The notes under the pieces are model-generated. The model was not told where the DNA came from. It worked only from the letters and a program-made list of their open reading frames with translations, and did not search any database. A stretch of 64,000 bases of DNA, taken from positions 186,001 to 250,000 of the forward strand of contig NZ_QGHC01000004.1 in assembly GCF_003148905.1 (NCBI RefSeq). The letters run 5' to 3'. This stretch comes from Fulvimonas soli. Lineage in GTDB: Bacteria > Pseudomonadota > Gammaproteobacteria > Xanthomonadales > Rhodanobacteraceae. Of this stretch, positions 15,709 to 61,966 are shown piece by piece. Each line of letters begins with the position of its first letter. Positions within the stretch are counted from its first letter, which is position 1. Position numbers and translations under genes: made by a program.

Positions 15709-15735
15709 CATCGCGGCCGGAGGCCGCTTCCACGA
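15709..15735. repeat. GCGGCCGGAGGCCGC palindromic repeat
   Basis: One copy of the second dispersed repeat family, core ATCGCGGCCGGAGGCCGCTT, followed by CCAC. It sits in the 270-base gap between the cardiolipin synthase gene and xseA. Other copies are at 17841, 41753 and, as an inverted pair, 49918. The rest of this gap shows no gene; its right end contains the xseA promoter. Confidence 0.75.
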
Positions 15736-47601: not shown

Positions 47602-47614
47602 GCGCGGCGCTCAG
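47598..47614. terminator. palindrome spanning both stop codons
   Basis: CTGAGCGC-G-GCGCTCAG: perfect eight-base arms that contain the TGA of the oxygenase gene on one strand and the TGA of the exchanger gene on the other. It may act as a compact bidirectional transcript end, although there is no T tract on either side. Confidence 0.4.
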
Positions 47615-48627
47615 CGCGCGAAGTGCCAGGCCACGAACGCCGCGAAGGCGACGTACAGCAGGCCCACCGGCACCAGCCGGCGCGCGTCCACCCCGCCGCG
47701 CCGGAACAGCCGCCAGAGGAAGACGATCGCCAGCGTGGTGACCGCGCCGGCCGCGACCAGCGGCGCGTCGAACAGCCAGGGCGTGGCGAACAGGCCGAGC
47801 GCGCTGGGGATGGTGGCCTGGATCATCATCGCGCCGGAGATGTTCGCCAGCGCCAGGCGCTCCTTGCCCTGGCGCACCCAGATCAGCGCGTTGACCGTCT
47901 CCGGCAGCTCGGTGGCCACCGGGCTCAGCAGCAGCGCGACCAGGTGCGGCGACAGGCGCAGCGCATGGCCGATGGCCTCCAGCTGCGCCACGAAGACGTG
48001 CGAGGCCAGCGCGATCACGCCCAGCGCCAGCGCGGCCTGCAGCAGCACCAGCGAGAGCCGCGGGTCGGCCGCGCGCGGCTGCAGCTTCAGCGGTTCGAGC
48101 TCCTCCTCCTCGGGGGCGGTGTCGCTGTCGCGCAGCTCGCGCCAGACGTACAGCGCGTAGGCCGCCAGGAACAGCACGCCCAGCCACGGCTTGAGCGCGA
48201 ACGCCACCAGGCCGAGCGCGCACTTGGCCACGAAGATCGCCAGGAACCAGAACTGGTCGCGCGCCAGGCGCCGGTGGTCGACCGCGAGCCGGCAGTCGTC
48301 GCGCCGCTGCCGGCGGCGCACCTGCCACAGCGCCAGCCCGACCACCGCGTAGGCGATGGTGGCCAGCACCAGCGGGCCGCCCAGCGCGGCGCCCACGCCG
48401 ATGTCGCGCTGCCGGCCCGTCTTGCCGAGCACCACCGCGACGAAGGTCACCGCGCTCTCCGGCAGCGCGGTGCCGAACGCCGCCAGCACCGTGCCCACCG
48501 CGGTGGCGCCCAGCTCGAACTTTCGGCCCAGCCATTCGATGCCGTTGACGAAGTACTCGCAGGCGAAGTAGATCGCGCCCGCAGAAAGCAGGAACAGCAG
48601 GACGACGGAAAGCATCGCGGTATCCAT
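47611..48627 (-). CDS. CaCA-family cation exchanger, probable Mn2+/Ca2+ exporter
   Basis: A 338-residue inner-membrane antiporter of the Ca2+/cation family. Two inverted five-helix repeats carry the alpha motifs: GTVLAAFGTALPESAVTFVA near residue 50 and LLLSPVATELPETVNALIWV near residue 245, with the acidic residues that bind cations; an acidic loop DSDTAPEEEELEP separates the halves. By sequence alone it could move Ca2+, Na+ or Mn2+. The upstream leader is a yybP-ykoY element, which senses Mn2+ in known cases and controls Mn2+ export, so Mn2+ is the likely substrate. Starts at 48627 and 48615 are both possible; neither has a strong ribosome-binding site. Confidence 0.88.
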   Translation of the reverse strand: MDTAMLSVVLLFLLSAGAIYFACEYFVNGIEWLGRKFELGATAVGTVLAAFGTALPESAVTFVAVVLGKTGRQRDIGVGAALGGPLVLATIAYAVVGLALWQVRRRQRRDDCRLAVDHRRLARDQFWFLAIFVAKCALGLVAFALKPWLGVLFLAAYALYVWRELRDSDTAPEEEELEPLKLQPRAADPRLSLVLLQAALALGVIALASHVFVAQLEAIGHALRLSPHLVALLLSPVATELPETVNALIWVRQGKERLALANISGAMMIQATIPSALGLFATPWLFDAPLVAAGAVTTLAIVFLWRLFRRGGVDARRLVPVGLLYVAFAAFVAWHFAR

Positions 48628-48656
48628 GACCGGGCGGGCGCGAAACCGATGGCGCA

Positions 48657-48846
48657 ACGACGCCGCCCGCCCGGCCGGGTGAGCACGTCGTGGCCAAAGG
48701 TCTCGCCGGACCGCTGCGCACCGCCGGGCAGTGCGACCGGCCATCCGCGCCATGGGGCGAAACCCCAAGTCTGTTGACGCGGATTCCTCGCGGATGGAAG
48801 CGGCGCTTCCCGGGAGCGAGGATGGCTACTCCCCGATGACAACGGC
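48657..48846 (-). promoter_or_regulatory. yybP-ykoY (Mn2+) riboswitch
   Basis: The leader of the exchanger gene holds the conserved parts of this riboswitch in order on the minus strand: GGGGAGTAGCC (from 48834), an ATCCGCG/CGCGGAT stem enclosing GTCAACA (48778-48772) and a GGGG-TTTCG-CCCC hairpin, and GGCGAGACCTTTGGCC (48707-48692). The GGGGAGTAGC and GCGAGACC loops form the metal pocket in known members. Outer stem: CGTTGT (48844-48839) with ACGACG (48691-48686). The same ACGACG can instead pair with CGTCGT (48662-48657), which gives a plausible switch. Recognition rests on remembered consensus, not a covariance search. Confidence 0.88.
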
Positions 48847-48915
48847 GCGCCATGCTAGCGGCAACCGCCGCGCAGCGGCAAGCCGGACCGGCCGCGCCGG
48901 GACGGCCGCGAAGAC

Positions 48916-49917: not shown

Positions 49918-49983
49918 ATCGCGGCCGGAGGCCGCTCCCACAAGGCTTGCGAGGCTCATGCGGGAGCGGCCTCCGGCCGCGAT
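49918..49983. repeat. inverted pair of GCGGCCGGAGGCCGC repeats
   Basis: Two copies face each other, with perfect 22-base arms (49918-49939 and 49962-49983) around a 22-base centre that includes CACAAGGCTTGCGAGGCTC. It starts three bases after the dnaJ stop on the minus strand. As RNA this would be the most stable hairpin in the window. The remaining part of the dapB-dnaJ gap (49720-49917) shows nothing else. Confidence 0.85.

Positions 49984-61613: not shown

Positions 61614-61966
<353 letters not shown>

Follow-up and report, generated by a model that had tools for sequence, protein, structure and literature searches.

Control of a CaCA exchanger by a manganese riboswitch has been described in Bordetella pertussis. 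Capek and colleagues (2021) reported that the CaCA protein BP3410 is induced by Mn2+, and not by Ca2+, via a yybP-ykoY element, that intact BP3410 lowers cell Mn, and that a 30-nt duplication inactivates it in most B. pertussis strains (PMC8546581). In a review, BP3410 stands for the Ca2+:cation exchanger type among the Mn exporters (PMC9936198). The Xanthomonas oryzae riboswitch of solved structure controls yebN (mntP), and A48 is its Mn2+-contacting adenosine (PMC6754395). In E. coli, Rho-dependent termination within the mntP leader is relieved in part by Mn2+ (PMC11647493). The main text of a 2013 RNA regulon survey names no exchanger (PMC3766115). A riboswitch-controlled CaCA Mn2+ exporter is therefore already published since 2021 and not new in kind, which makes the basic claim less surprising, and considering the BP3410 precedent the exchanger of Fulvimonas soli would be a further case of a known type. 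The present analysis adds a covarying switch, a promoter conserved among orthologs and an ion-site signature that departs from the usual CaCA one, and the support for the link between riboswitch and CaCA gene is wider than in the literature found.

The window, that is, the whole stretch of 64,000 nucleotides of F. soli DNA that was analysed, carries the exchanger gene and its leader on the minus strand. The original prediction was that this leader contains a yybP-ykoY element and that the antiporter behind it exports Mn2+. The features of the gene, its putative promoter and the aptamer are the following.

47611..48627, minus strand: CaCA exchanger gene, predicted Mn2+ exporter (338 aa from ATG 48627; 334 aa from the conserved ATG 48615)
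48852..48857, minus strand: -10 box TAGCAT, putatively the riboswitch's own promoter (TANNAT-like, 23 nt before GGGGAGTAG in the window)
48673..48846, minus strand: yybP-ykoY Mn2+ riboswitch aptamer (cmscan; P2 and P3 covary in 78 leaders)
48825..48834, minus strand: L1 metal-site loop, 5′ part, GGGGAGUAGC (conserved in 99/105 ortholog loci)
48699..48707, minus strand: L1, 3′ part, GGCGAGACC (sequence; ortholog loci)
48743..48784, minus strand: P3 stem-loop with L3 (GUCAACA...), with strong two-sided stem changes

The aptamer was identified by cmscan of the window; the match to RF00080 (yybP-ykoY) was significant, with 59.6 bits and an E-value of 3.6e-13 against a gathering score of 45, and it extends from 48846 to 48673 (minus strand) over positions 1-177 of the 177 in the model, so it is full length and above the gathering cut-off. 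All the pieces that the original prediction had named were located: GGGGAGTAGC at 48834-48825, GGCGAGACC at 48707-48699, and GTCAACA at 48778-48772 within the ATCCGCG/CGCGGAT stem, whose arms lie at 48784-48778 and 48749-48743. The leader starts slightly outside the range given, 48657-48846, with the -10 box at 48857-48852. The core of RF00080, formed by L1 (GGGGAGUAGC / GGCGAGACC) and by L3 (GUCAACA in P3), is present, and the P3 stem-loop (48743..48784) holds the counterpart of the X. oryzae A48. Among the 105 ortholog loci fetched, some of them redundant, 99 are preceded by the same motif set at near-constant spacing and six lack an intact set. This recurrence at the same spacing excludes a chance origin of the element. 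In 78 non-redundant leaders P2 and P3 covary and P1.1 is retained. Taking into account its membership in RF00080, the leader RNA is predicted to sense Mn2+.

Upstream of the leader lies dapB, and the convergent gene downstream of the exchanger is a probable 2OG-Fe(II) oxygenase, both assigned from sequence. In the ortholog leaders a TANNAT box stands mostly 21-22 nt ahead of GGGGAGTAG (23 nt in the window), and for 78 of 97 leaders the best-matching -10 has an offset of -21 or -22. A scan of the leader for consensus promoters found none. Because the box keeps a constant distance in most ortholog leaders, the riboswitch probably has its own promoter just 3′ of dapB. The distance from the aptamer end to the exchanger gene is about 46 nt. 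An ATGCT start is conserved across the orthologs and corresponds to ATG 48615, which is thus probably the start of the exchanger rather than ATG 48627. Elsewhere in the window, a REP-like palindrome, GGGAGCGGCCTCCGGCCGCGA, was found at 49919-49982 and also at 15711, 15796, 17849 and 41755; there are six copies with ≤3 mismatches against 0.12 expected, and one inverted pair lies between dnaJ and dapB. A tmRNA gene was detected at 61614-61965 on the plus strand (RF00023, 184.5 bits).

The leader can adopt alternative pairings, formed by these segments.

48833..48840, minus strand: P1.1/P1 helix, 5′ strand GUCAUCGG, which pairs with CCUUUGGC (48700-48693) in the consensus fold of 78 leaders
48684..48700, minus strand: shared strand CCUUUGGCCACGACGUG, either 3′ side of P1.1 or 5′ arm of helix A (helix A covariation)
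48646..48663, minus strand: helix A, 3′ arm GCGUCGUUGCGCCAUCGG, followed by UUU at 48645-48643
48665..48675, minus strand: hairpin B, 5′ arm GCCGGGCGGGC, inside the loop of helix A (covariation, 50 leaders)
48629..48639, minus strand: hairpin B, 3′ arm, ending 13 nt ahead of the conserved ATG

The shared strand, CCUUUGGCC..., has two possible partners, the aptamer's 5′ end (giving P1.1) and a copy of that 5′ strand further downstream (giving helix A): downstream GUUGCGCCAUYGG repeats the aptamer 5′ strand GUUGUCAUYGG, and either one can pair with CCUUUGGCCACGAC. Helix A and hairpin B are mutually exclusive, since the loop of A contains the 5′ arm of B, while the 3′ arm of B is beyond A. In an alignment of 50 sequences, helices A and B together were 97.8% paired and showed two-sided changes at 10 of 24 pairs; the sequences had been aligned without fitting to the structure, but since the structure itself was drawn from them, the paired percentages are biased upward, and it is the two-sided changes that carry weight. 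There were 56 two-sided cells against 15.3 ± 8.0 after shuffling, and slid controls gave ≤13. For hairpin B by itself, 98.7% of cells were paired in the 50 leaders and 5 of its 11 pairs had two-sided changes. For transcripts that stop immediately past A, the computed energies favour helix A over P1.1 by 7.9 ± 2.8 kcal/mol, with A the lower of the two in 91 of 93 leaders; this computed difference is as would be expected if the energy of the ligand must hold the aptamer.

According to the mechanism proposed, without Mn2+ the RNA would fall into helix A, breaking the aptamer, and the gene would be off. Mn2+ would bridge L1 and L3, P1.1 would be held and the 3′ arm of helix A freed; hairpin B would then form and the gene would be on. 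The direction, in which Mn2+ means on, is taken from the known riboswitch class. Several candidates for the output were tried. A scan of the leader for intrinsic terminators found none, and often only 3-4 U follow helix A, which are able to pair with GAGACC; helix A was consequently rejected as an intrinsic terminator and is better named an anti-aptamer helix. Hairpin B was dropped as a terminator because it is not followed by a U-run. The computed accessibility of the ribosome site did not change consistently between the RNA states (mean unpaired probability 0.47 vs 0.46 in 93 leaders), and a simple occlusion of the site was rejected on these means. Intrinsic termination, Rho or translation are possibilities for the OFF state, and Rho is a candidate by analogy with the E. 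coli mntP leader.

Regarding the protein, two PF01699 (Na_Ca_ex) repeats were detected (E 7.3e-30), with two matches also in the search of its own genome. Against TIGR00367, the model of the canonical YrbG-type calcium/sodium antiporter, the exchanger scored 76.4 bits, below the curated cut-off of 179.65; its score was also under the cut-off of the YrbG equivalog, and its alpha motifs differ from the GTSLPE of that type. The predicted structure (pLDDT 77.5) shows a full CaCA fold with inverted repeats. When Foldseek's own matches, and only these, were compared again, the Z-scores were 33.0 for NCLX, 31.4 for NCX1, 29.9 for CAX and 21.3 for NCX_Mj; Ca2+-exchanger chains are at the top, and no Mn2+-transporting CaCA is among the matches listed. 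Of the ion-site residues of NCX_Mj, T50, E54, T209 and E213 have identical counterparts here (T53, E57, T239 and E243), whereas S51, S210 and D240 are replaced by A54, E240 and Q270, as is N81 by L88 if the alignment is gap-free. In 33 aligned proteins, down to 32% identity, E57, E240, E243, M267 and Q270 are invariant, as are the motifs ATE-x-PE and GAM-x-x-Q. The ion-site signature, GTALPE / ATELPE / GAM-x-x-Q, is an altered CaCA one; GTSxPE is retained by the ordinary CaCA paralogs of the order. A re-tuned ion site of this kind fits Mn2+ selectivity, and is no proof of it.

In the F. soli genome one RF00080 element and one CaCA gene were found. A domain search of this genome for MntP (PF02659) and GDT1 (PF01169) gave no match, and an Nramp importer match was cut by the contig end. 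Among 34 Rhodanobacteraceae genomes the exchanger is present in 25, with RF00080 on the same strand 9-123 nt upstream in 24 of them. Where the exchanger is missing, in nine genomes, RF00080 is always present and stands beside MntP (4) or GDT1 (5), and exchanger and MntP occur together in only one genome (G125). This exclusion gives a Fisher p of 1.9e-7, an optimistic value because the genomes are related. In G060, the one remaining genome with the exchanger, the gene is directly after dapB, and no RF00080 was found there even with permissive filters; the locus L013 of this genome and also L128 have the exchanger almost directly after dapB without a riboswitch, possibly by natural loss or by an assembly fault in a MAG.

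Outside the family, orthologs at 66-82% identity (as in Rhodanobacteraceae itself) were found in Acinetobacter, Chromobacterium, Silvimonas, Crenobacter, Ramlibacter and others, and RF00080 is above the cut-off upstream of orthologs in these five genera and in most of the loci tested. It was also possible to see the element upstream, above the cut-off, of orthologs at 53-62% identity in Massilia, Azospirillum, Novosphingobium and Aeromonas, and of a 34%-identical Burkholderia protein; for the Streptomyces ortholog the score was below the cut-off, and for the Legionella ortholog no RF00080 was found. A second CaCA group, of about 29-38% identity, has the same ion-site signature and is mostly without the element. 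In 200 Burkholderiales genomes RF00080 adjoins all 4 close homologs and 4 of the 43 distant homologs; the other 39 distant homologs, and nearly all of those in the class sample, carry the signature without a riboswitch. In that class-wide sample (370 genomes) RF00080 mostly precedes GDT1-like genes, as judged from the translated downstream frame. On these two samples, a link of the entire A1-like protein family to the riboswitch was rejected: as most distant homologs have no riboswitch, a tie to Mn2+ does not hold throughout the family.

Some neighbourhoods outside the family were recorded separately. On a Massilia putida plasmid (L181, 974-2795) the riboswitch and CaCA gene are beside an IS5 transposase and dmeF (Co/Ni efflux), and the unit may travel with metal resistance. 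In a Hydrogenophaga replicon (G289, contig 2, at 152205 and 172457; L219 and L243) two equally scoring RF00080-GDT1 units are separated by about 20 kb, and the first of them adjoins dmeF. In Chromobacterium the exchanger is followed, after about 2.4 kb, by a Mg2+ M-box riboswitch (RF00380, 143.9 bits; L168, 6439-6606).

The analysis gives good support to the prediction that this antiporter exports Mn2+, through the replacement of MntP and GDT1, the riboswitch link in distant taxa and the BP3410 precedent. The main evidence is the swap of unrelated exporters behind one sensor: in its own lineage the exchanger would fill the place that MntP or GDT1 has in relatives, and it would export Mn2+ in exchange for H+ or Na+. 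This has to be weighed against the possibility of a true Ca2+/Na+ or Ca2+/H+ antiporter whose expression simply rises with Mn2+, for instance to adjust Ca2+ or pH under Mn2+ stress. Pfam, NCBIfam and the fold all group it with Ca2+ exchangers, and the central carboxylates E54 and E213 of NCX_Mj are kept as E57 and E243; however, other ion-site positions are changed (S51A, S210E, D240Q), the exchanger takes the place of dedicated Mn2+ exporters behind the same riboswitch, the F. soli genome was found without another exporter of the kinds usual behind RF00080, and BP3410 was induced by Mn, not by Ca, and brought cell Mn down (PMC8546581). We consider a Ca2+ antiporter improbable on this balance.

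Some TerC genes are under yybP-ykoY control, so that Mn2+ might instead be moved to the periplasm mainly for loading exported enzymes, in the manner proposed for TerC proteins, and not for detoxification. TerC proteins have a part in the metalation of exported enzymes (PMC10550928), and terC of V. parahaemolyticus is regulated by yybP-ykoY (PMC13274385). The CaCA fold is nevertheless unrelated to TerC, and deletion of BP3410 led to a simple growth failure on toxic Mn2+ (PMC8546581), which leaves enzyme loading with an even smaller chance than Ca2+ transport. The smallest chance of all is given to an aptamer that has decayed or shifted to another divalent ion: L3 reads ACAGACU here vs ACAUACU in X. 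oryzae, but at this variable position clear orthologs have any of G, C, A or U, GUCAACA is exact and the helices covary. The best explanation as a whole, with a probability of roughly 0.85, would be a Mn2+ riboswitch acting by a helix switch that turns the CaCA gene on with Mn2+ for Mn2+ export.

We suggest, tentatively and with more doubt than confidence, that CaCA proteins with GTALPE/ATELPE/GAM-x-x-Q may form a branch re-tuned from Ca2+ to Mn2+, and that the Rhodanobacteraceae type of three-helix switch (P1.1, A and B) may be undescribed in the literature found. If this is true, ion selectivity in the CaCA superfamily could be read from sequence. Many annotations as 'sodium:calcium antiporter' may be wrong. 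The riboswitch context together with the exchange with MntP or GDT1 would be a practical rule to recognise the Mn2+-exporting branch, and the altered ion site would give a handle on how CaCA proteins choose between Ca2+ and Mn2+.

By comparison with known systems, the closest is BP3410, set beside our locus by its published description: it is likewise a CaCA protein annotated as calcium:cation antiporter and directly under yybP-ykoY, and in F. soli too the element is directly upstream of the CaCA gene. MntP/YebN of X. oryzae and E. coli shares the riboswitch class and the inferred role and is found behind the same leader in 4 of the 34 family genomes, but it belongs to an unrelated family (PF02659). 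GDT1/UPF0016 (MneA, Mnx) shares leader and role, in 5 of the 34, whereas it is of a different family (PF01169), only loosely compared to CaCA. In structure, NCLX matches over the full-length fold (rmsd 2.7 over 312 residues, Z 33.0), and NCX_Mj less closely (rmsd 4.5 over 286 residues, Z 21.3); the two central glutamates of NCX_Mj are kept here, while its S51, S210 and D240 (and N81 if gap-free) are A, E and Q (and L) in the exchanger.
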